NCBI GenBank assembly: GCA_028871345.1
Contig: JAGWNK010000002.1
Span: 124,001 to 188,000 of the forward strand
Origin: Alphaproteobacteria bacterium
GTDB taxonomy: Bacteria; Pseudomonadota; Alphaproteobacteria; Micropepsales; Micropepsaceae
Reading direction: 5' to 3'
DNA length: 64,000 nt
The position numbers and the translations under genes are program-made. Shown here one piece after another: positions 15,352-62,761 of this stretch; positions within the stretch are counted from its first letter, which is position 1; the number at the start of each line of letters is the position of its first letter. The notes beneath the pieces were generated by a model. It was not told the origin of the DNA. It worked only from the letters and a program-made list of their open reading frames with translations, and ran no database searches.

Positions 15352-15645
15352 TCAGGCGCCGCCCTCGTGACCGTTCAGCCGTTCGCGCAATTCCTTGCCG
15401 GTGCGAAAGAACGGCGCGCGCTTCTCATCGACGGAAACCGGTTCGCCCGTGCGAGGGTTGCGACCCATGCGCGCCGGTCGAACCTTTACAGAGAAGGCGC
15501 CAAACCCGCGAAGTTCCACACGATGTCCTTCGGAGAGCGCCTTCGTGATGCGGTCGAGCACCGTCGACACGATCCGCTCCACGTCACGATGATAAAGATG
15601 CGGATAGCGTGCGGTCAGTTGTGCCACCAGTTCGGACTTGATCAT
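15352..15645 (-). CDS. ihfB: Integration host factor subunit beta
   Basis: IhfB pairs with IhfA to bind and sharply bend DNA at WATCAANNNNTTR-like sites. The 97-residue protein has the HU/IHF fold: [10 protein letters not shown] start, [13 protein letters not shown] strand, and the DNA-inserting arm with [10 protein letters not shown], where the proline intercalates. ATG 15645 follows GGCGAAGGGG. Its normal upstream neighbour is rpsA; here about 3.3 kb carrying PEP-CTERM genes separates them. IHF-like sites occur in the PEP-CTERM promoters next door. Confidence 0.95.
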
Positions 15646-15862
15646 CCCCTTCGCCCCTAGGAAGACGGTTCGCAAAAAACCGCCTCACAGATGTTAACCC
15701 TGTCAGAGCCGCGCCCGGCCGTCAACGGGAAGCCACTGAATTAGCAGGATTTTCCAGAAATGTGTCGGAAATCACTCAGGCGGCGTGAAAATGTAGCAGC
15801 GGCTGGTTACCGGGGTCAGGCGCCGGGAGGCAAACGCCGCCGCAGCCCGACCGTAAACGAAG

Positions 15863-15879
15863 TGTAAAGACGGATTACA
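15863..15879. promoter_or_regulatory. Inverted repeat A upstream of PEP-CTERM gene 1 (candidate PrsR site)
   Basis: TGTAA-N7-TTACA; the palindrome extends by one more pair to GTGTAA/TTACAC. It lies 112 bases (start to start) before the -24 box at 15975 and 43 bases before repeat B. The same arrangement is found before PEP-CTERM gene 2. Assignment to PrsR is inference. Confidence 0.6.
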
Positions 15880-15905
15880 CCGCCGGCGTCACGTTCAATG
15901 CCAAA

Positions 15906-15922
15906 TGTAAAGTTCCGTGACA
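15906..15922. promoter_or_regulatory. Inverted repeat B upstream of PEP-CTERM gene 1 (candidate PrsR site)
   Basis: TGTAA-N7-TGACA, followed directly by CTGGTAACCCT, a sequence also conserved after the equivalent repeat of gene 2. It starts 69 bases before the -24 box. The 43-base offset from repeat A is about four helical turns, so both repeats would face the same side of the DNA. Confidence 0.6.
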
Positions 15923-15974: not shown

Positions 15975-15991
15975 TGGCCCGCTCCTTGCTC
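15975..15991 (+). promoter_or_regulatory. Sigma-54 promoter of PEP-CTERM gene 1
   Basis: TGGCCCGCTCCTTGCTC fits the sigma-54 consensus TGGCACG-N4-TTGCW at all but one position, with the invariant GG and GC 12 bases apart. Transcription would start near 16003, leaving an untranslated leader of about 40 bases with a ribosome-binding site. Confidence 0.85.
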
Positions 15992-16044: not shown

Positions 16045-16716
16045 ATGACCATGGGTATCCGTTCGACATGGGTCGCGGCGGCGGCCATCCTGGTGGCTGG
16101 GTTCGCCACTGTGGCACCGGCACAGGCGACGTCCATCACCTATGATTTCACGATCGACGGCTGCACGTCAGGCTGCGGCGCCACGAACTACGGCACCGTC
16201 ACGGTCACCGACCTGACCGGGGGCGGCGTCGATGTCAGCCTGTCGCTGATCAGTTCGGCCGGTCTTTGGTCCACCGGCGCACTGGATAACCAGCAGCTGG
16301 ACTTCAACCTGAAAAGCGTATCGGGCCTGACCATTACGGGCCTTCCCAGCGGCTGGAGCTACTCCACGGGGACATACCTCGTGCATGGCGGGTTCGGCAC
16401 GTTCAACGTGGCACTGTCCTGCGGCACGACCTGCGGAAAGAACAAGGGCGTGTACGACACCTTCCCGCTGGACTTCCACATCACCAACAAGTCGGTCACG
16501 ACCTCGTCGTTCTTGATCGGCACCGGCTCGACCAACGACGCCTATTTCGTGGCCGACATCAGCAACACGGCCGGCAAGAACACCTATACGGGCCGCATCG
16601 GCGCCACGCTCGGCGACAGCACAGACGTTCCGGAACCGGCGACGCTGGCACTCCTCGGGGCCGGCCTGGCGGGCATGGGCGCGATGCGCCGCCGCCGCAA
16701 GGCGAAGACGGCCTGA
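16045..16716 (+). CDS. PEP-CTERM sorting domain protein 1
   Basis: A 223-residue exported protein that should be processed by exosortase A. It has a signal peptide (VAAAAILVAGFATVAPAQA), a beta-rich central domain starting YDFTIDG with paired cysteine motifs (CTSGCG and SCGTTCG), and at the end the full sorting signal: VPEPA, a hydrophobic segment (LALLGAGLAGMGA) and a basic tail (MRRRRKAK). GGGAG precedes ATG 16045; an ATG two codons later is an alternative. Its own sigma-54 promoter and a terminator make it monocistronic. The paralogue 255 bases downstream has the same architecture. The function of the mature domain is unknown; surface or matrix protein is the likely role. Confidence 0.92.
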   Translation: MTMGIRSTWVAAAAILVAGFATVAPAQATSITYDFTIDGCTSGCGATNYGTVTVTDLTGGGVDVSLSLISSAGLWSTGALDNQQLDFNLKSVSGLTITGLPSGWSYSTGTYLVHGGFGTFNVALSCGTTCGKNKGVYDTFPLDFHITNKSVTTSSFLIGTGSTNDAYFVADISNTAGKNTYTGRIGATLGDSTDVPEPATLALLGAGLAGMGAMRRRRKAKTA

Positions 16717-16796: not shown

Positions 16797-16813
16797 TGTA
16801 AAGGTGGATTACA
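16797..16813. promoter_or_regulatory. Inverted repeat A upstream of PEP-CTERM gene 2 (candidate PrsR site)
   Basis: TGTAA-N7-TTACA, 111 bases (start to start) before the -24 box at 16908. The following GGATTACA and GCG context is also shared with repeat A of gene 1. Confidence 0.6.
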
Positions 16814-16839: not shown

Positions 16840-16856
16840 TGTAAACCGGGCTGACA
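16840..16856. promoter_or_regulatory. Inverted repeat B upstream of PEP-CTERM gene 2 (candidate PrsR site)
   Basis: TGTAA-N7-TGACA, again exactly 43 bases after repeat A and followed by ATGGTAACCCT. It starts 68 bases before the -24 box. Confidence 0.6.
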
Positions 16857-16889
16857 ATGGTAACCCTGGGGTCATGTTCAACCCTTTGA

Positions 16890-16902
16890 AATCAAGGGGT
16901 TG
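16890..16902 (+). promoter_or_regulatory. IHF-binding site before sigma-54 promoter 2
   Basis: AATCAAGGGGTTG matches the IHF consensus WATCAANNNNTTR at every position. It starts 18 bases before the -24 box, between the promoter and the inverted repeats, where IHF bends DNA at many sigma-54 promoters. Confidence 0.5.
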
Positions 16903-16907
16903 GGGCC

Positions 16908-16924
16908 TGGCCCGCTCCTTGCTC
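16908..16924 (+). promoter_or_regulatory. Sigma-54 promoter of PEP-CTERM gene 2
   Basis: TGGCCCGCTCCTTGCTC is identical to promoter 1 over 17 bases, although the surrounding DNA has diverged, which argues for selection on the site. Transcription would start near 16936. Confidence 0.85.
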
Positions 16925-16970: not shown

Positions 16971-17654
16971 ATGATGGGGACGCGTTCGAAATGGATTGCT
17001 GCCGCGGCAGCCCTGGCAGCTGGGCTGGCGGTTCAGTTCGCGACCGTTGCGCCCGCTCAAGCCTCGGTTTTGACGTACGATTTCACGATCGACGGATGTT
17101 CGTCGGGCTGCGGCGCGACCGACTACGGCACGATCACGGTCACCGACCGCGCGGGGAACGCGGGCGTCGACGTCAGCCTGACGCTGATCAGCTCGGCCGG
17201 GCTGTGGTCCACGGGCGCGCTGGACAATCAGCAGCTGATCTTCAACCTGGCCAGCGTCTCGGGATTGACGATCACGGGCCTGCCGACGGGCTGGAGCTCT
17301 TCAACCGGATCTTTCACCCCCAAGGGCGGCTTCGGAACCTTCGACGTGGCGCTGTCGTGCGGCTCGACCTGCGGCAAGAGCGCCGGCGTCTACAAGACGT
17401 TCCCGCTGACCTTCTCGATCACGACCGCATCGGTCCACACCTCGTCTTTCCTGATCGGCACCGGTTCGACCAACAACGCCTATTTCGTGGCCGACATCAG
17501 CAACAGGGTCGGGAGCAAGACCTACACGGGCCGCATCGGCGCGACCTTGCATCACCATGTCGTTCCGGAGCCGGCTACGCTGGCGCTGCTTGGCGCGGGC
17601 CTGGCCGGGATGGGCGCCATGCGCCGCCGCAAGAAAGCCAAAGCGGCCGCCTGA
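16971..17654 (+). CDS. PEP-CTERM sorting domain protein 2 (tandem paralogue)
   Basis: A 227-residue exported protein closely similar to PEP-CTERM protein 1 along its whole length: signal peptide ending near APAQAS, YDFTIDG start, CSSGCG and SCGSTCG cysteine pairs, LIGTGSTN near the C-terminus, and the sorting signal VPEPA, hydrophobic stretch, RRRKKAK. It differs before the sorting motif, where it has HHHV instead of DSTD. The start is one of two adjacent ATG codons (16971 or 16974) after GGGAG. Own sigma-54 promoter and terminator. Likely substrate of the exosortase encoded at 37.7-39.2 kb; molecular role of the mature protein unknown. Confidence 0.92.
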   Translation: MMGTRSKWIAAAAALAAGLAVQFATVAPAQASVLTYDFTIDGCSSGCGATDYGTITVTDRAGNAGVDVSLTLISSAGLWSTGALDNQQLIFNLASVSGLTITGLPTGWSSSTGSFTPKGGFGTFDVALSCGSTCGKSAGVYKTFPLTFSITTASVHTSSFLIGTGSTNNAYFVADISNRVGSKTYTGRIGATLHHHVVPEPATLALLGAGLAGMGAMRRRKKAKAAA

Positions 17655-53295: not shown

Positions 53296-54560
53296 GCGCG
53301 CTTGCCCGCCAAGAGGCGTCCGGCGGCGCCGATCGCGTGCTGTCGGTGCTGACCGTCACGACGTTGTTTCCCAACGCCGCCATGCCGCAGCACGGCGCCT
53401 TCGTCGCGGCGCGGTTGGACAAACTCCTCGACAGCCGGAGCGTGCAGGCCGAGGTCATCGCGCCCGTACCCTGGATTCCACCGCTTGTGCGCTACGCGCC
53501 GGCCGGGCGCCTGGATCTGGTGCCGCGCCTCACCGCACGGAACGGCACCAAGATCTGGCACCCGCGCTATCTGGTCGTCCCCAAGATCGGAATGACGCTG
53601 ACGCCACGCACGCTGTACGGCGCCTTCCGGCGCACGCTGGAACGGCTGTTGGCCGCGGGCCGGCGCTACGACCTGATCGATGCCCACTACTTCTATCCTG
53701 ACGGCGTGGCCGCCGTCCGCCTGGCGCGCGAATTCGCCATTCCGGTCGTGGTGACCGCTCGCGGGACCGATGTCAGCCTGATCCCGGACTTTGCGGGGCC
53801 GCGGCGCATGATCCTGGATGCCGCCGCAAAGGCCGACGGACTCGTCACGGTTTGTCAGGCCCTGAAAGACCGGCTGGTCGAACTGGGCGTCGCCGCCGAG
53901 CGCGTCACCGTGTTGCGCAACGGCGTCGATCTCGATCTTTTCAAGCCGATAGATCGCGAGCAGGCCCGCAAAGGCCTTGGACTGACGCGGACCACCTTGC
54001 TGAGCGTCGGCTGGCTGATCCCGCGCAAAGGACACGACCACGTCATCCGGGCGCTCCGACTCCTGCCCGACACCGACCTGCTGATCGCCGGCACCGGCCC
54101 GGAACACGCCTATCTCGAAATGCTGGCGAAGCACAGCGGCGTGGCCGACCGCGTGCGCTTCCTGGGGACGCTGTCCGCTACCGAACTGGCGAAAGTTTAC
54201 GGAGCTGCCGACGCTCTCGTCCTGGCCTCGAGCCGCGAAGGCTGGGCCAATGTGCTCTTGGAATCGATGGCGTGCGGCACGCCCGTCGTCGCCTCCGCGG
54301 TTTGGGGAACTCCCGAAGTCGTGGCCGAGCCGGCCGCCGGGATGTTGATACCCAGGATCGATGCCGAGGCCATTGCGGCCGCGGTGCGCAAGCTGCTCGA
54401 GGCCGGCCACGATCGCGCCGCCACGCGCCGCTATGCGGAACGCTTCAGTTGGGACGCCACGACAAAGGGCCAGCTCGACCTTTTCCGCAGCGTCGTGTCA
54501 CGCCGGCGCAGCCGGGCGTCTTCGGCGGACGCAGACCCGCCCCCCCTGGGGCAGCTGTAA
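53292..54560 (+). CDS. Glycosyltransferase family 4 protein (second)
   Basis: A 422-residue GT-B glycosyltransferase starting with VLSVLTVTTLFPNAAMPQHG, a pattern shared by exosortase-associated enzymes. It has IDAHYFYPDGVAAV, RNGVDLDLF, LLSVGWLIPRKGHD and the donor motif SSREGWANVLLESMACGTPVV. ATG 53292 overlaps the preceding stop. Ends 100 bases before prsK. Sugar specificity unknown. Confidence 0.91.
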   Translation: MSALARQEASGGADRVLSVLTVTTLFPNAAMPQHGAFVAARLDKLLDSRSVQAEVIAPVPWIPPLVRYAPAGRLDLVPRLTARNGTKIWHPRYLVVPKIGMTLTPRTLYGAFRRTLERLLAAGRRYDLIDAHYFYPDGVAAVRLAREFAIPVVVTARGTDVSLIPDFAGPRRMILDAAAKADGLVTVCQALKDRLVELGVAAERVTVLRNGVDLDLFKPIDREQARKGLGLTRTTLLSVGWLIPRKGHDHVIRALRLLPDTDLLIAGTGPEHAYLEMLAKHSGVADRVRFLGTLSATELAKVYGAADALVLASSREGWANVLLESMACGTPVVASAVWGTPEVVAEPAAGMLIPRIDAEAIAAAVRKLLEAGHDRAATRRYAERFSWDATTKGQLDLFRSVVSRRRSRASSADADPPPLGQL

Positions 54561-54572
54561 ACAATTTTTACT
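54556..54572. promoter_or_regulatory. Inverted repeat upstream of prsK, similar to the PEP-CTERM sites
   Basis: TGTAA-N7-TTACT differs from the PEP-CTERM repeat by one base. It overlaps the end of the glycosyltransferase gene. No sigma-54 box lies downstream, but TATAAT at 54620-54625 suggests a housekeeping promoter. It may allow PrsR to control its own operon. Confidence 0.35.
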
Positions 54573-54660
54573 TTGCGCACCGAGATTGTTTGAGCTTGCC
54601 ACCGGGCGTTGATAAGCTTTCTATAATTCTTTCAACTAAAGTTTGCAGTATATTGGCCGG

Positions 54661-56703
54661 ATGGGACTGGGGTTTTCCGTTATCGCGGGCCTGCTGACGG
54701 CAGTCGGTTACGCGGCGTTCGCGCTCGTCTTGCCGTTGCGCGGCAAGCGCTCGTGGCCGAACTACCTCTTTGCCTTGGCGGCAGCGGCCACCGCTCTGTG
54801 GGCGCTCAGCGTGGCCCTGGCGGACTACGAATGGCTTGATGCGTGGGTCCCCCGCGCCGCCGGCGCGCTGCGAGACGCCTGCTGGTTCGCCATCATCGTC
54901 AGCCTCTTGCGCCAGGACACCCACGCCCAGCCCCTGTGGCGGCGCCTCGCCCTCTCGGCGGGCGTCCTGATCGTCGCGGAGGTGATCTTCGCGGCGCTCA
55001 ATCTCAACGTCGACAGCGGACTGGGCGTGACGCTGAACCAGCCCACCATCCAATTCGCGGTATCCGTGATGGGTCTGATCCTCACCGAGAACCTGGTTCG
55101 CAACGTCGGCCCGGCGCGCATGTGGTCGGTGAAACAGCTGGCCATCGGCCTTACGGCGCTGTTCGCCTACAACATCGTCTTGCGGATCCCCGAGTTCCTC
55201 GGCGGGCACGCCATCCAGATTTTCGACCAGGCGCAGCCCCTGGTCTACCTAGTGGCGCTGCCGCTCTTCGTCGTGACCGCCGTGCGCAACGATTCGCTGC
55301 GTCTGCATGTGCACTCCTCGCGCAACGTCGTTTTCCATACCGCCACCCTGATCTTCGCGGGCATCCTGCTCTTGGGAACGGCGGCGGCCGCCGCCTATGT
55401 CCGGCGCTTCGGGGGAACGCCGGCGGCCGTCTTGTCGATCGTGCTGGGCTTCGCGGGCCTGGTGGGGATGACGGTGGCGGTGAGCGCGCGCTCCATCCGC
55501 TCGCAGATCAAGACGTTCATCAACGAGAATTTCTTCAGCTACAAGTACGATTACCGCCTGGAATGGACGAAGTTCATCCAGGCCCTGGCCCGTCACGAAG
55601 AACGCGGCGGACCCGAGCGCGTGCTGCTGACGCTTGCCGACCTGCTCGACAGTCCGGGCGGCGTCCTGTTCGTCCGGCGCAGCGGCTGGAAACAGTTCGT
55701 ACGCCTCGCCCACTCGACCTTCGGCGACAATTTCGGGCCGATCCAGCAGGACGATCCGCTGCTGGCGTCGTTCGAGGACGAACATGTGGCCTTCCTCGAA
55801 CTGACCTCGCGGGAGCAAGAGACCGCACTCTGGCGCGCACGCTTCCCGAAAGCCTGGCTGGCGGTGCCTCTGCGTTTCCGCGAGGAGCTGGTCGGCTTCG
55901 CCCTGCTGCACAAGCCGCGCGCGCCCAAGCGACTCGACTGGGAGGATCGCAGCCTCGTCGCACTCATCGCCATGCAACTCGCCGCGCATCTGGTGCACGA
56001 ACACACCGCGCAGGCCCTGGCGGATTCCCAGCAGCTCGCCGAATTCAACAACCGCGTGACCTTCGCCCTGCACGACCTGAAGAACACCGCGGGCCAGCTC
56101 GGCCTCCTGCTGCACAACGCCGAGCGCTTCGGCGACGACGCAGAATTCCGCGCCGACATGCTGCAGACGATCCGCCACGCAGTCGACAACCTGCAAGGGC
56201 TGATCACCAAGCTGCGCGACGGCACCCAGAAAGGCGACGGCGCCGCGCTCGTGCGCCTGGATGTGCGCGAAGTGGTGAGCCAATACACGCGGCGCAAGGC
56301 GAAGTCTGGCATCGTCGTCGGCGAAGCCGGCGGCGAACCTGTCTATGCGGAAGTGACCCAGCCGGCCGCCTTCGAAAACGCCCTGGAACACGTGGTGTCG
56401 AACGCCGTGGAGGCGAGCCCGGCCCCCAACAGCGTGCGCATCAGCGTCGAACGCGACAGCGATCGCGTCCGCGTCAGCGTGCGGGACAACGGACACGGCA
56501 TGGCGCCGGAATTCGTCGCCCACGAACTGTTCCGGCCGCTGCACACGACGAAGAAGAAAGGGCTCGGCATCGGCGCCTACCAGGCGCGCGAAATCATGCG
56601 CAAGCTGGGCGGCGATATCGAGGTGCAAAGCAGGATCGGGCAAGGAACGACGGTGTCGCTGCTGCTTCCGGCCTGCAGGGAAGAGTCGAGAACGACGACA
56701 TGA
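54661..56703 (+). CDS. prsK: PEP-CTERM system sensor histidine kinase PrsK
   Basis: A 680-residue membrane sensor kinase (TIGR02916). Eight or so N-terminal helices (about 1-270), a GAF-like domain, then the kinase core with His471 in FALHDLKN, N box near 574 (ALEHVVSNAVEASP), and G boxes (VRDNGHGMAP and TKKKGLGIGAYQAREI). ATG 54661 is chosen over a TTG six codons earlier; neither has a strong site. It is coupled to prsR by an ATGA overlap and should phosphorylate it. The signal is unknown. Confidence 0.94.
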   Translation: MGLGFSVIAGLLTAVGYAAFALVLPLRGKRSWPNYLFALAAAATALWALSVALADYEWLDAWVPRAAGALRDACWFAIIVSLLRQDTHAQPLWRRLALSAGVLIVAEVIFAALNLNVDSGLGVTLNQPTIQFAVSVMGLILTENLVRNVGPARMWSVKQLAIGLTALFAYNIVLRIPEFLGGHAIQIFDQAQPLVYLVALPLFVVTAVRNDSLRLHVHSSRNVVFHTATLIFAGILLLGTAAAAAYVRRFGGTPAAVLSIVLGFAGLVGMTVAVSARSIRSQIKTFINENFFSYKYDYRLEWTKFIQALARHEERGGPERVLLTLADLLDSPGGVLFVRRSGWKQFVRLAHSTFGDNFGPIQQDDPLLASFEDEHVAFLELTSREQETALWRARFPKAWLAVPLRFREELVGFALLHKPRAPKRLDWEDRSLVALIAMQLAAHLVHEHTAQALADSQQLAEFNNRVTFALHDLKNTAGQLGLLLHNAERFGDDAEFRADMLQTIRHAVDNLQGLITKLRDGTQKGDGAALVRLDVREVVSQYTRRKAKSGIVVGEAGGEPVYAEVTQPAAFENALEHVVSNAVEASPAPNSVRISVERDSDRVRVSVRDNGHGMAPEFVAHELFRPLHTTKKKGLGIGAYQAREIMRKLGGDIEVQSRIGQGTTVSLLLPACREESRTTT

Positions 56704-58079
56704 CCAAGGAAACAAACAGTCATGAGACGAGTCCGGCTGCCAGGCGCATCCTGCTGGTGGAGGACGACGCCGGCCTGCGCAAGCAGATGCAATGGGCGCT
56801 CGATCCCTACAAGGTGGTCAGCGCCGGCTCTCGCGGCGAGGCCCTGAAGCTGTTCGAAGAAGAAGAGGATCTGCGGATCATCATCCTCGACCTCGGGCTG
56901 CCGCCGGACCCCGACGGCGCCTCCGAAGGCCTCAAGATCCTCGACGAGATCCTTTCCTCGACCCCGGACGCCAAGGTCATCATCCTCAGCGGCAATGCCG
57001 ACCGGGCGGTGGCCGTCAATGCCGTGGCGCGCGGCGCGTTCGATTTCGTCTCCAAGCCGATCGAAGTCGATGTCCTCAAGCTGATCGTGGACCGCGCAGC
57101 ACGGATGTACATGCTCGAGGAGGAGAACCGCCTGTTGCGCGCCAATGCCGACCGCAGGCTGCCCGGTTTCGTCTTCAGTTCGCCCCAGATGCAGCACGTG
57201 GCGCAGACCATCGAGCGGGTCGCCCGCACCGACGCCAGCGTGCTCATCCTGGGCGAAAGCGGCACCGGCAAGGAGCTCGTCGCCCGGGCACTGCACGAGT
57301 CCTCGTCGCGCAGCGGCGCCAAGCTGGTCGCCATCAACTGCGCCTCGATCCCCGAGAACCTCCTCGAGAGCGAGCTCTTCGGCCACGAACGCGGCGCCTT
57401 CACGGGCGCCATCAAGCAGACGCTCGGCAAGTTCGAGATCGCCGACAAGGGGACGCTGTTCCTCGACGAAATCGGCGACATGCCGGTGGCGCTGCAGGCC
57501 AAGCTCCTGCGCTTCCTGCAAAGCAAGCAGTTCGAACGGATCGGCGGCCGCACGACATTGACGGTCAACGTCCGCGTCATCTCGGCCACCAACCAGCCGC
57601 TCAAGCAGCTGGTCGCCGACGGGCGCTTCCGCGAAGACCTCTACTACCGGCTCAACGAAATCCGCATCGACTTGCCGCCCCTGCGGGAACGGCAGGGCGA
57701 CGCGGTGATTCTAGCCCAGCACTTCCGCAATCTCTGCAACCGCGAGCATTCGCGCAATCTGCGCGGCTTCACCAAGGAGGCGATCTCGGCACTGCAGTCC
57801 CACGGCTGGCCCGGCAACGTGCGAGAACTGGAAAACCGCGTGAAGCGCGCCGTCATCATGTCCGACGGCCCGCTCCTGACCGAGATGGACCTGGAACTAA
57901 GCGCCAGCGCCAAGCCGCGCAATCTCAACCTGCGCGACCACATGCGCGAGGTCGAAAGCGCCTTGTTGCGCGAAGCGCTCGTGGTCGCCGACGGCAACGT
58001 ATCCAAAGCGGCCAAGCTGATGGGGATCAGCCGGCCGCAAGTCTACAATCTCTTGAGCACGCACAAGCAGCGCGCCTGA
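56700..58079 (+). CDS. prsR: PEP-CTERM system response regulator PrsR (sigma-54 activator)
   Basis: A 459-residue NtrC-type regulator (TIGR02915). Receiver domain with Asp64 as phosphoacceptor (IILDLGLPPD) and Lys119; AAA+ domain with Walker A GESGTGKE (185-192), the sigma-54 contact loop GAFTGA (232-237), Walker B LFLDEIGD and arginine finger region FREDLYYRL; C-terminal Fis-type helix-turn-helix (GNVSKAAKLMGISRPQVYNLL). It therefore needs RpoN and distant DNA sites, which fits the repeats and -24/-12 promoters of the PEP-CTERM genes. Confidence 0.96.
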   Translation: MTKETNSHETSPAARRILLVEDDAGLRKQMQWALDPYKVVSAGSRGEALKLFEEEEDLRIIILDLGLPPDPDGASEGLKILDEILSSTPDAKVIILSGNADRAVAVNAVARGAFDFVSKPIEVDVLKLIVDRAARMYMLEEENRLLRANADRRLPGFVFSSPQMQHVAQTIERVARTDASVLILGESGTGKELVARALHESSSRSGAKLVAINCASIPENLLESELFGHERGAFTGAIKQTLGKFEIADKGTLFLDEIGDMPVALQAKLLRFLQSKQFERIGGRTTLTVNVRVISATNQPLKQLVADGRFREDLYYRLNEIRIDLPPLRERQGDAVILAQHFRNLCNREHSRNLRGFTKEAISALQSHGWPGNVRELENRVKRAVIMSDGPLLTEMDLELSASAKPRNLNLRDHMREVESALLREALVVADGNVSKAAKLMGISRPQVYNLLSTHKQRA

Positions 58080-58097: not shown

Positions 58098-60953
58098 ATG
58101 ACCATGTCGTCGAAGACGTCCGGCGTCCACCGTGTCCGGCATCGACTGCTCGCCACTGCCGCCGTCCTGGCCGGCGTCCTCGTCGCCGCCTCGCTGTCGA
58201 CCGGCACCGCCAGCGCCGACACCCCAAAAGGCGCCAATTCGGGCTACGTGTCCAAGACTCCGTCGGGCCTCAACGATCTCTTGCGCAAGGCGAACCAGGC
58301 GATGGCCCAAGGCCACGCGAATGTCGCCGTGCTCTACCTGAAGAACGCCACCGCGCTGGCGCCCAGGAACGCCGCCGTGCATACGCAGCTGGGCCTGGCC
58401 GAGCTGCAGTCGGGCGATCCGGGCAGCGCCGAGCGCGAGTTCCGCACCGCCCTGGCGAACGGCGCGCCCCAGGCCCAGGTGAACCCCTATCTCTACGATG
58501 CCATGCTGTTGAAGGGCGAAGCCCAGCTCCTGCTCTTGCAGTTCCCCGCGCCGCCGGACAGCGATCACAGTCCCCTTGCCTCGGCGACGCTGCGCGCCCG
58601 CGCCGTCGCCTTTGCGCAGACCAACGACAAGGGGCAAGCCGCGAACGCGATGGACAAGGCCCTGACGATCGACCGCTCGCCGATTAACCTCGTCACGCGC
58701 GCCCGACTCTATAACGACGCCGGCGACAGGGCTTCCGCCTCCAAGCTGATCGACGAAGCACTGGCGAAGACGCCGACCGATCCGACGACGTTGCAGCTAA
58801 AGATCACCATCCTCCAGCTCGAGGACAAGGCCAACGAAGCCTTGAACTACGCCAATACCCTGGTGAAGGCCCATGGCAACTACGCGCTCGGCTACGTTGC
58901 CCGCGCCGGCGTATACATGCAGCTGAACCAGGACGCCAAAGCCCTGACGGACGCGAACACGGCCCTATCCATCACTGCGAACCTGCCGCAAGCCGTCTAT
59001 TTCAAGGCCATGATACGCGCGCGCGCCAAGGATCCCAAAGGCGCCTGGGCCATCGCCCAAGTCCTGCCGCCGGAATTCCTCCGCATGCGTCCCGACATCG
59101 GCATCATCGTCAGCCAGATGGCGATCGACGCGGGCCACCCTGAACTCGGAACCAGCATCCTGTCGGCCCTTGTGGCGCGCTATCCGGACAACGCCGATGC
59201 CAGAGTGAAACTTGGCGGCCAGTATCTTCGCCTGCACGACAGCCAGCGCGCCCTCGAAACCCTGCTGCCGCTGAAAGACGGAGGCGACCCCAGGGTGATG
59301 ATCCTGCTCGGCGAATCCTATGAGATGCAGAAGCAGTACGGCGCCTCCACCGAATATTTCGAGAAGGCCATCTCCAACGGCTACGGCGGCGACCTCCTGA
59401 AGCAGGAAGTGGCGAACTCGAACCTGCGCTACGGAAACCTCGACAACGCGATACAGGAATACAAGGACCTGTTCGCCAAGAACCCGGGCGATCCGCAAAT
59501 CGCCGGGCCGCTGATCGCGGCCCTGCTGCAAAAGCACGACGTGCAGGGGGCGAGCGCCGTCGCCAACAAGCTCGCCGAAGCTTCGCCCAACAGCCCGTAC
59601 GGCACGTTGTTCCAGGGCCAGCTCGCCATGAACCGCGGCGACGTGGACAGCGCGATCACATTCCTCTCCCGCTCGATCGCGTCCGACAAGAACTTCATTC
59701 CGGCGATCTACGACCGTGCGGTGTGCTACATCGCGAAGGCAGACTACAAGAGCGCCAATGCCGATCTGAATGCGATCGTCGCCAGCGACCCGCGCAACGT
59801 GATGGCCCTCATCCGCGGCGCGCAGATCGCCTTGAACATGGGGCAGCTCGACAAGGTGCCCGAACTGCTCAAACGCGCCATCGCCGTCGATCCGAAGAAC
59901 ACCATGTCGAACATGGCGCTGGCCACGTTCTACTTCACGCACAATCGGGTGAAGGACGCCGCCGCGACCGTTGCGTCGTTCCTGCAACGCGTCCCTACCG
60001 ATCCCACCGCCCTTGCCTTCGAAGGCCAGATCCAGATCGCCACCGGGCATGCCGACAAGGCGGTCGATACCTTCCGCATGCTGGCGAAGACCCATCCCGA
60101 CGTGGCCCAGCTGCAGGTGTTGCTGGGCAACGCGCTGGCGGCGAAGAAGGACACGCTGGGGGCCATGGCGGCCTATCAGCGCGCCGTGCAGCTGGCGCCA
60201 AAATTGAAGTCGGCGCGAACCTCGCTGATCCGCTTTGCGCTCGCCAACCACAACCAGGAAGTCGCGATCGCCACGGCGCAAGACGGCGTGCAGCGCGATC
60301 CCGGCCCCGACTCCGACCTCACTTTGGCCGCCACGCAGGCCACCATCGGCCGGCTGGATGCGGCCGAGGCGACGCTGAAGCGCAGCCTGTCTGAACATCC
60401 CTCCGAAGCGGCGGCAGTCGCCTTGAGCGAAATCGAGCGCCGTGCCGGCCACGGCAAGGACGCCGACGCGGTGCTGACGTCGTGGATGGCGGGCCATCCG
60501 GATTCCATCAATGCCCGACTCATCTATGCCCAGAACATGATGACGGCGAATCCGGTCGTTGCGGAACAGCAGTTCCACACGGTGCTCAAAGCGCAGCCAT
60601 ACAACACCGTGGCGCTGAACAACCTCAGCTGGATGCTGCAGAACAAGGATCCGCATCAGGCCCTCGCCTATGCGGAACAGGCCGCCAAGCAGGCACCGAC
60701 TTCGCCGCCCGTCCTGGACACCCTCGGCTGGGTGAAGTGGCAGAACAAGGACGGAGCAGGCGCCCTGCCGCTGCTGCAGAAGGCGCATGCCGCCGACGCC
60801 GGCAATGGCGAGATCACCTACCACCTGGCGGTCGTGCTGGCCGGGACGGGTCACCGCGACGAGGCCAAGAAAACCTTGGCAGCTCTGCTGGCGACGAACG
60901 CGCCGTTCGAGGACCGCCAGAAAGCCGTAGCGCTCACAGCCTCCTGGCGATAG
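58098..60953 (+). CDS. prsT: PEP-CTERM system TPR-repeat protein PrsT
   Basis: A 951-residue exported protein made of tandem tetratricopeptide repeats (TIGR02917). The signal peptide (LLATAAVLAGVLVAASLSTGTASA) has an Ala-x-Ala cleavage site but no lipobox cysteine, although the family is usually lipoproteins. TPR units such as NAAVHTQLGLAELQSGDPG repeat to the end (PTSPPVLDTLGWVKWQ). It follows prsR by 18 bases. Probable periplasmic scaffold; exact role unknown. Confidence 0.92.
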   Translation: MTMSSKTSGVHRVRHRLLATAAVLAGVLVAASLSTGTASADTPKGANSGYVSKTPSGLNDLLRKANQAMAQGHANVAVLYLKNATALAPRNAAVHTQLGLAELQSGDPGSAEREFRTALANGAPQAQVNPYLYDAMLLKGEAQLLLLQFPAPPDSDHSPLASATLRARAVAFAQTNDKGQAANAMDKALTIDRSPINLVTRARLYNDAGDRASASKLIDEALAKTPTDPTTLQLKITILQLEDKANEALNYANTLVKAHGNYALGYVARAGVYMQLNQDAKALTDANTALSITANLPQAVYFKAMIRARAKDPKGAWAIAQVLPPEFLRMRPDIGIIVSQMAIDAGHPELGTSILSALVARYPDNADARVKLGGQYLRLHDSQRALETLLPLKDGGDPRVMILLGESYEMQKQYGASTEYFEKAISNGYGGDLLKQEVANSNLRYGNLDNAIQEYKDLFAKNPGDPQIAGPLIAALLQKHDVQGASAVANKLAEASPNSPYGTLFQGQLAMNRGDVDSAITFLSRSIASDKNFIPAIYDRAVCYIAKADYKSANADLNAIVASDPRNVMALIRGAQIALNMGQLDKVPELLKRAIAVDPKNTMSNMALATFYFTHNRVKDAAATVASFLQRVPTDPTALAFEGQIQIATGHADKAVDTFRMLAKTHPDVAQLQVLLGNALAAKKDTLGAMAAYQRAVQLAPKLKSARTSLIRFALANHNQEVAIATAQDGVQRDPGPDSDLTLAATQATIGRLDAAEATLKRSLSEHPSEAAAVALSEIERRAGHGKDADAVLTSWMAGHPDSINARLIYAQNMMTANPVVAEQQFHTVLKAQPYNTVALNNLSWMLQNKDPHQALAYAEQAAKQAPTSPPVLDTLGWVKWQNKDGAGALPLLQKAHAADAGNGEITYHLAVVLAGTGHRDEAKKTLAALLATNAPFEDRQKAVALTASWR

Positions 60954-61997: not shown

Positions 61998-62615
61998 TCA
62001 GGCCGACTTCTTCTTGCGGCGCAGGCGGAAACCGCCGATGCCCGCGAGACCCGCGCCGAGAAGCGTCAACGTGGCCGGCTCCGGAACGGTCGACGCCGGC
62101 GACGCGAAGGTGGCGCTCATCGAGATCGACGTGCCGGGCCCGCCGGTCTGCGTCAGGCTCCAGGTCTCATTGGCGCTCAACACTGCCCCGGCGTTCTTCC
62201 AATCGCTGCCCAGCGTGAAGGTGCCCACGACCGAATAGGTGACGCTCTCACCCTTGCCGCTCGGGGTCTTGCCGCCGAACGTGACGCTGGTCGCCGTGAA
62301 GGTACCAAGGCCTGCATCCGTGAAATCGAAGGAGCTGGCACCCGCGGTGGTGAAGGTCAACGGCGTCGTGGCGCCAAGGGTCGACGGCAGGGAGATCATC
62401 GCAAAGCTGCCGGACGGCGACCCGATGAAAACATCATTCGGAGTCGGGCTCGTCAGGACGAACGACGTCGTTGTGGTCACGTCCGTTTTGGTGGACGTAA
62501 ACGCCGTCACGGCGAAAGAGCCGGACGAATACATCGGCAAAGGCGTCGCCAGGGCCGCGCCCGTGGTGACAACCAGTGCGGCAACAGCGCCAGCAATTCC
62601 TCTAGACAGCGACAT
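61998..62615 (-). CDS. PEP-CTERM sorting domain protein 3
   Basis: A 205-residue exported protein of a different type from the tandem pair. Signal peptide (AGAVAALVVTTGAALA), Thr/Ser-rich beta domain without cysteines (TSTKTDVTTTTSFVLTSPT), then VPEPA, a hydrophobic stretch (LTLLGAGLAGIGG) and basic tail (RLRRKKKSA). Two ATG codons (62618 and 62615) follow AGGAG; the second has better spacing. Its promoter is sigma-54 type, 50 bases upstream. Likely exosortase A substrate; function unknown. Confidence 0.92.
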   Translation of the reverse strand: MSLSRGIAGAVAALVVTTGAALATPLPMYSSGSFAVTAFTSTKTDVTTTTSFVLTSPTPNDVFIGSPSGSFAMISLPSTLGATTPLTFTTAGASSFDFTDAGLGTFTATSVTFGGKTPSGKGESVTYSVVGTFTLGSDWKNAGAVLSANETWSLTQTGGPGTSISMSATFASPASTVPEPATLTLLGAGLAGIGGFRLRRKKKSA

Positions 62616-62664
62616 CATCTTCTCCTCGTTCCCATGGGGCAAACCCGACCCCGCAGGCATAGCG

Positions 62665-62681
62665 AAGCAAGGCCCGTACCA
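62665..62681 (-). promoter_or_regulatory. Sigma-54 promoter of PEP-CTERM gene 3
   Basis: Read leftward, TGGTACGGGCCTTGCTT fits TGGCACG-N4-TTGCW with one mismatch, GG and GC 12 bases apart. The start of transcription would be near 62653, leaving a leader of about 38 bases. Confidence 0.82.
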
Positions 62682-62687
62682 GTATAA

Positions 62688-62700
62688 AAATTCTATGATT
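62688..62700 (-). promoter_or_regulatory. Possible IHF site before sigma-54 promoter 3
   Basis: AATCATAGAATTT (leftward) matches WATCAANNNNTTR at 11 of 13 positions and begins 19 bases before the -24 box, like the sites at the other two PEP-CTERM genes. Confidence 0.35.
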
Positions 62701-62744
62701 TTCAGTTAGTTAGAAGCGGAGGCCGGTAAGCCGGCCTATGGATT

Positions 62745-62761
62745 TGTAAAGTCTTTTGACA
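62745..62761. promoter_or_regulatory. Inverted repeat upstream of PEP-CTERM gene 3 (candidate PrsR site)
   Basis: TGTAA-N7-TGACA on the + strand (TGTCA-N7-TTACA read leftward), same form as repeat B of the tandem genes, 80 bases start to start from the -24 box. Only one copy is visible here. Confidence 0.55.

Follow-up and report, generated by a model that had tools for sequence, protein, structure and literature searches.

A lineage form of motif 1 as a predicted PrsR operator at PEP-CTERM promoters of an alphaproteobacterium, its pair spacing and its helical phasing to the sigma-54 box

Which regulator reads the short palindrome that recurs in front of the PEP-CTERM genes of this alphaproteobacterium, and what does it mean that at two neighbouring promoters the palindrome stands twice, at one and the same distance? 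The window, as we call the whole stretch of 64,000 nucleotides that was analysed, contains both sides of the question. It carries three PEP-CTERM protein genes: gene a (16045-16716, plus strand), whose product has PepA (NF033554) as its best NCBIfam match, under the cut-off of that model, gene b (16971-17654, plus strand) and gene c (61998-62618, minus strand), for which the start at 62618 is judged likely, with an in-frame ATG upstream at 62660. Proteins a and b share 75% identity across 203 aligned positions. The window also carries, adjacent to each other and all on the plus strand, prsK, which encodes a sensor kinase (54643-56703; TIGR02916, 475 bits, cut-off 300), prsR (56742-58079; TIGR02915, 602 bits, cut-off 502.6, start codon provisional) and prsT, which encodes a TPR protein (58098-60953; TIGR02917, 417 bits, cut-off 312). 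PrsR is composed of a receiver domain (PF00072), a sigma-54 AAA+ domain (PF00158) and a Fis-type HTH (PF02954), and its recognition-helix segment, encoded at 58032-58055 on the plus strand, reads RPQVYNLL, where relatives mostly have RPTLYDLL or RPTLYSLI.

An earlier note on this DNA had placed five copies of TGTAA-N7-TKACA at the three PEP-CTERM promoters, and our scan of all 64 kb returned precisely these, at 15863, 15906, 16797, 16840 and 62745, with no further copy; 100 dinucleotide shuffles of the window gave 0 matches. At promoter a (plus strand) a predicted distal PrsR site, the symmetric form of motif 1 discussed below, occupies 15863-15879, 112 bp before the T of the -24 box, and a predicted proximal site occupies 15906-15922, 69 bp before it, the sigma-54 -24/-12 box itself, TGGCCCGCTCCTTGCT, being at 15975-15990. 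Promoter b (plus strand) repeats this layout, with predicted sites at 16797-16813 (distal, 111 bp before the -24 box) and 16840-16856 (proximal, 68 bp) and a box at 16908-16923. Promoter c, on the minus strand, has a single predicted site, TGTCAAAAGACTTTACA on the gene strand, at 62745-62761, 80 bp before the box TGGTACGGGCCTTGCT at 62666-62681. At both tandem promoters the two sites are 43 bp apart, start to start, and the sequence in between has diverged, as the note had also said: 9 of 26 positions are identical between the 26-bp stretches of promoters a and b. When up to one mismatch is allowed and GG/GC has to be intact, the window yields three sigma-54 boxes, each with a 10/10 site upstream. 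A one-mismatch copy of the motif at 54556-54572, about 70 bp before the prsK ORF, was rejected as a candidate, being without a sigma-54 box within one mismatch; it may point to autoregulation or be due to chance.

Throughout the 3.9 Mb genome there are eight exact TGTAA-N7-TKACA sites, and seven of them stand at PEP-CTERM promoters (the five of the window, one on C100 and one on C90); the eighth, on C34, overlaps the start of another ORF and is without a sigma-54 box. When the left half is relaxed to TGTMA the genome yields 11 sites, 8 of which are at PEP-CTERM promoters, against 2 for the reversed control; those elsewhere are on C19, C34 and C63. An equal abundance of the motif at random sites, which the note had named as an argument against an operator, is not what this genome displays. 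Eleven PEP-CTERM genes were found above the TIGR02595 cut-off and 12 are counted with the C90 gene (G000:C90:10784, L244), which was missed by the TIGR02595 search yet has a plain PEP-CTERM tail; its promoter combines a perfect symmetric site with a -12 element that reads TTGT instead of TTGC. A motif-1-like site together with a -24/-12-like box was located at 11 of the 12 genes, C56 having neither, and the boxes are poor at C15 (3 mismatches) and C90. The N7 core varies among the sites of this genome.

The palindrome had been put forward as a new candidate operator, and in this respect the note has to be corrected. Haft et al. 2006 (PMC1569441) described a 17-nt motif 1 with a TTTACA end, occasionally repeated, and assigned it to PrsR. 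According to the same source, motif 1 precedes 99 of 167 proteobacterial PEP-CTERM genes and is followed by a sigma-54 motif after a mean spacer of 62.8 nt (SD 10.6, span 32-92 nt), and extra sites are never inside coding regions of PEP-CTERM-positive genomes, a rule to which our C34 site, overlapping an ORF start, is an exception. TTTACA terminates one strand at all five window sites, and it is on this hexamer that the comparison with the published letters rests. The proximal-site spacers of promoters a, b and c (52, 51 and 63 nt) are within the published span, and in the composite arrangement of motif 1 and motif 2 the published mean spacer of 62.8 nt corresponds to the 80 bp class of distances described below. 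Since the operator of relatives is mostly TGTCGG-N5-TTTACA, and since the C48 promoter keeps the canonical TGTCGG form in this genome too, the motif is, judged by its letters, a lineage form of the published motif 1. Unlike the published element, the sites here are mostly symmetric, TGTMA-N7-TKACA, and are paired at 43-44 bp in four promoters. Nor can the symmetric form be generalised to other PrsR-positive genomes, in which matches and reversed-control matches number 2 and 2 (G003), 7 and 7 (G037), 2 and 2 (G047) and 0 and 3 (G049).

That PrsR is the reader was proposed in the earlier note from its Fis-type end, and several lines of evidence speak in favour of it. Among 398 Pseudomonadota genomes the composite pattern of motif 1, spacer and box occurs in 29 (control columns 0), PrsR above cut-off occurs in 45 (the best four candidates per genome were scored, at E <= 1e-150), and the two occur together in 23 of the 29, this genome (G000) included, with a Fisher p of 1e-19; the six genomes with composite matches and without PrsR above cut-off are G129, G236, G280, G235, G163 and G218. 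The recognition segment, compared among 40 PrsR sequences, is mostly RPTLYDL or RPTLYSL, and RPQVYNL in this genome. In the congener G033 it was the TGTCA-like sites that were noticed first, and its PrsR helix was then found to be RPQVYNL as well; the congener G003 has TGTCGG sites and the helix RPTLYDL. Of the 23 operator sites of the two RPQVYNL genomes, 21 carry A at position 5 (13/14 in G000 and 8/9 in G033), a covariation that has to be counted as one evolutionary event, because the PrsR proteins of these genomes are sisters (81% identity, support 1.0). With Asp at the same helix place, position 5 is G in 37 of 40 sites: 16/17 in G037, 3/3 in G003, 17/18 in other genomes and 1/2 in G326, whose helix RPTFYDL goes with one A site and one G site. 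Ser is associated with G in G049 (6/6) and with A in gammaproteobacteria (12/12), Gly (G452) with four G and two A, and Asn in G128 with G at its sole site. For G000, G033, G037 and G003 these counts include all sites that reach 11 bits; the search pattern behind the phylum sites admits only C at position 4 and only A or G at position 5. Within the genus, no more than 3 of 37 genomes have PrsR.

Published work on other bacteria speaks for the PrsR explanation as well, with one exception. In Desulfovibrio vulgaris the regulator predicted for PEP-CTERM genes bound the five predicted targets in a DAP-chip experiment (PMC3333781). This regulator, DVUA0057, is, like PrsR here, a response regulator tied to PEP-CTERM targets (PMC3333781, PMC4641369); its motif, predicted later, is common to a second regulator, DVU0110 (PMC4641369), and the two systems are likened here by the type of regulator and its targets. 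In Zoogloea, RpoN and PrsK-PrsR regulate PEP-CTERM genes (PMC9012009), and in Aquincola the mapped pepA start belongs to a -24/-12 box, upstream of which an enhancer was predicted, the same study (PMC9850573) also reporting a complementation failure, which is weighed against the PrsR explanation. Taken with the helix-operator covariation and the co-occurrence in 398 genomes, the Desulfovibrio result makes the reading of the palindrome by PrsR well supported, the binding itself being what we infer. In G047 PrsR scores above cut-off and yet there is no TIGR02595 match at E 0.01, so that PrsR may serve other targets, or the PEP-CTERM genes may escape the model.

The position of the site relative to the promoter has a regularity of its own. 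Measured from the site start to the T of the -24 box, 64 of 65 distances outside this genome form three groups, with means of 59.3 (12 promoters), 68.9 (14) and 79.7 bp (38) and SDs of 1.2-1.5, the odd one being 92 bp; the set omits values of 111 (C1 of G033, above 92) and 42 (C114 of G037). These steps of about 59, 69 and 80 bp are one DNA turn apart and extend across Pseudomonadota. The phylum distances, searched in the range of 55-85 bp, are also phased: related genomes in the set not being fully independent, 39 of them give a circular R of 0.59 at 10.5 bp, a value attained by 0 of 100000 jitters of at most 5 bp per value, and for all 46 together R is 0.50, with a jitter p of 1e-5. In a further set, made up of 26 alphaproteobacterial promoters, R is 0.81. 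The best period is 10.6 bp for the 46 phylum distances and also for the 65, and 10.2 bp for the 39, which are from PrsR-positive genomes and omit L247, L269, L270, L272, L273, L274 and the own-genome value. In this genome the proximal distances are 60, 67 (the weak C93 site), 68, 68, 68, 69, 80, 80 and 82 bp, and C48 (104 bp) and C90 (91 bp) are outliers outside the three steps. Classical NtrC/NifA enhancers lie about 100-200 bp away; in comparison with them the nearest site here mostly keeps a distance of 59-80 bp to the -24 box and is placed in discrete one-turn steps. In section 7 of Haft et al. (PMC1569441), the part pertinent here, the mean and SD of the spacer are given and phasing is absent. 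Seven alphaproteobacterial composite promoters (L249-L251, L254, L255, L257 and L282) have a distance of 59-61, and six of them, L257 being the exception, contain TTAAC in the spacer; in the stretch read beside these seven no PEP-CTERM tail was seen.

Between site and box a further element can be discerned. With YAANNNNTTGATW / WATCAANNNNTTR, which we take to be the IHF consensus, an IHF-like element with at most one mismatch to YAANNNNTTGATW was found at -34 to -29 in 25 of 77 promoters against 0.61 expected from dinucleotide shuffles, a comparison that is post hoc as to the interval, this place having first been seen in the same data; anywhere in the spacer the element was found 31 times against 4.49 expected. 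Reversed-consensus controls gave 0 at -34 to -29 and 0 and 2 anywhere, under their expectation of 3.6 and 3.8. The analysis excluded L247, L269, L270 and L272, which look coding by eye and whose genomes later turned out to be PrsR-negative, and the 77 promoters also exclude L273 and L274, likewise from PrsR-negative genomes. By distance class, the element is present in 22/42 promoters at 75-93 bp, 3/18 at 64-74 bp, 0/13 at 55-63 bp and 0/3 above. Five of the ten promoters of this genome that were tested have it (at most one mismatch, -34 to -29), and it is absent from that interval at C30a, C100 and C93. At promoter b the IHF-like element is at 16879-16891 (plus strand, 1 mismatch to YAANNNNTTGATW), 29 bp before the -24 box, and promoter c has a weak one at 62700-62712 (minus strand, 2 mismatches), 31 bp before its box. 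At sigma-54 promoters it is common for IHF to bind the stretch that separates the enhancer from the promoter (PMC7962754), and NtrC/NifA-type promoters, with activator sites upstream and an IHF site in between, resemble the arrangement proposed here. A term search of Haft et al. 2006 (PMC1569441) returned no mention of IHF. The gene ihfB, for integration host factor subunit beta (15352-15675, minus strand), is divergent from promoter a and adjoins its paired sites, and IHF is a candidate co-factor of PEP-CTERM promoters.

The pairs themselves had been interpreted as sites on one DNA face, and this view stands for a part of the promoters of this genome but does not amount to a general rule. Spacings of 43-44 bp, which correspond to 4.1-4.2 turns and are near a whole number, were found at four of 11 mapped promoters: the tandem ones (C30a, C30b), C100 (44 bp, partner matched at 9/10) and C93 (43 bp, a weak partner at 8/10). 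The remaining seven are without a 43-44 bp partner of at least 8/10, and at C59 a partner site is 91 bp away. Of 49 PrsR-positive genomes, two contain exact pairs spaced by 28-58 bp, namely this one (two pairs) and G067 (54 bp), and exact pairs at 89-119 bp comprise six in G037 and one in G374. The pairs of G037, another alphaproteobacterium (L332, L334-L338), are spaced by exactly 111 bp in five cases and by 102 bp in one; 111 bp makes 10.6 turns and would be off the helix face unless the DNA is bent. Five of these six pairs have a downstream box (at most 2 mismatches), all five with an IHF-like element before it, and in three of the five another IHF-like copy, with no more than one mismatch, stands between the paired PrsR sites. 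The pair spacing is lineage-specific, 43-44 bp here and 111 bp in G037.

It can be objected that the 43 bp spacing has no function and was inherited through tandem duplication or arose by chance. The clearest pairs, those of promoters a and b, stand before the genes of paralogues that are 75% identical; these two pairs probably derive from one ancestor, which means that they are not independent, and yet both sites and their spacing were kept while only 9 of 26 positions between them remained the same. The pairs at C100 and C93, even if the latter has a weak partner, belong to other promoters, and when the flanks were shuffled by composition 3000 times, three independent promoters never came to share one spacing, the shuffle maximum being 2 (ten promoters considered, C30a left out). 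The absence of exact 28-58 bp pairs from 47 of the 49 PrsR-positive genomes would suit the objection, and against it G037 repeats a fixed spacing of its own in five exact pairs. We regard a functionless spacing as unlikely, though it deserves more attention than the two other alternatives.

One of these is that another regulator, either a different NtrC-like protein or a TetR/GntR-type repressor, reads the palindrome, PrsR being a bystander. The genome has at least five further NtrC-like matches under the TIGR02915 cut-off, and look-alike palindromes serve other factors, as suggested by 42-44 bp pairs of TGTAA-N7-TTACA-like sites in many Bradyrhizobium records among the matches listed; however, every strong sigma-54 box of the window carries a site, the site accompanies PrsR through the 398 genomes, and a changed PrsR helix goes along with a changed operator, all of which leaves this possibility improbable. 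One such Bradyrhizobium locus (L103, 2800-3160), in which a 43 bp TGTAA-N7-TTACA-like pair is flanked by a TetR-family gene and that gene's neighbour, was set aside as an unrelated look-alike. A paired-site scan of an 84,980-species collection returned at least 119 stretches, the matches listed including tandem arrays and numerous records from Bacteroidota and Firmicutes, and served as the basis of no count. The other alternative, that the motif is a dispersed repeat or a structural palindrome unrelated to regulation, draws on the congeners G026 and G010, which have no PrsR at the threshold used and in which many of the relaxed-pattern matches are copies of one sequence; in the genome under study it is contradicted by the diverse N7 cores and by the location of most sites at PEP-CTERM promoters, and we give it hardly any credence. 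In a scan of 61 genomes for TGTMA-N7-TKACA the counts were close to the reversed control in many PrsR-lacking genomes, with the exceptions of G026 (26 vs 0), G043 (18 vs 2), G010 (11 vs 2) and G017 (11 vs 4). The copies in G026 and G010 read TGTAACGGGCCATGACA, are numerous, in some cases inverted about 107 bp apart, and probably constitute a dispersed repeat; G043, with its 18 matches against 2 reversed, is a small genome without PrsR.

The reading that we prefer is that of PrsR as the regulator at these promoters. It appears highly likely that the motif is a PrsR upstream activator site acting through oligomerisation, contact with sigma-54 and IHF bending; the predicted site is in all likelihood functional, and the repeated motif is very probably a docking site of PrsR at promoters of exported surface proteins. 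According to the mechanism that we propose, PrsK would phosphorylate PrsR, a response regulator of the NtrC type, and phosphorylated PrsR would occupy the 17-bp operator as a Fis-type dimer, via both half sites. At four promoters PrsR would sit on a pair of operators that lie on the same face of the DNA, some four turns from each other, an arrangement expected to favour the assembly of the AAA+ ring; this ring would touch the sigma-54 polymerase at the -24/-12 box. As the closest operator usually keeps to one of the steps of about 59, 69 or 80 bp, bound PrsR would face the polymerase, and at the longer distances a bend in the DNA would come from the IHF-like element that lies about 31 bp before the box. 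PrsR binding, oligomerisation, IHF occupancy and activation are what we infer from the arrangement of these elements.

To the published motif our computation adds, as extensions read from the DNA, the coupled change of operator and helix, the distance steps, the IHF-like element and the lineage-specific pair spacing. No earlier report was found of the altered operator/helix pair, of the one-turn steps, of the IHF-like element or of the lineage pair spacings, in a search that was thin on subscription journals. It would be tempting to describe PEP-CTERM promoters in general as a modular, ruler-like array, [PrsR-IHF]n-sigma-54, in which the PrsR-PrsR spacing is set by the lineage and the operator co-evolves with the recognition helix, and we see the chances of this generalisation as evenly balanced. 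Some activated-sludge bacteria depend on PEP-CTERM proteins and PrsR to form flocs (PMC9012009, PMC9850573). The PrsR operator has been a prediction since 2006. Direct tests of it become possible with the altered operator and its matching helix, with the one-turn steps and with the IHF-like element, and the same features allow the regulon to be searched for with far greater precision. If the proposed array is true, the PrsR family could give a readable DNA-recognition code for Fis-type activators.
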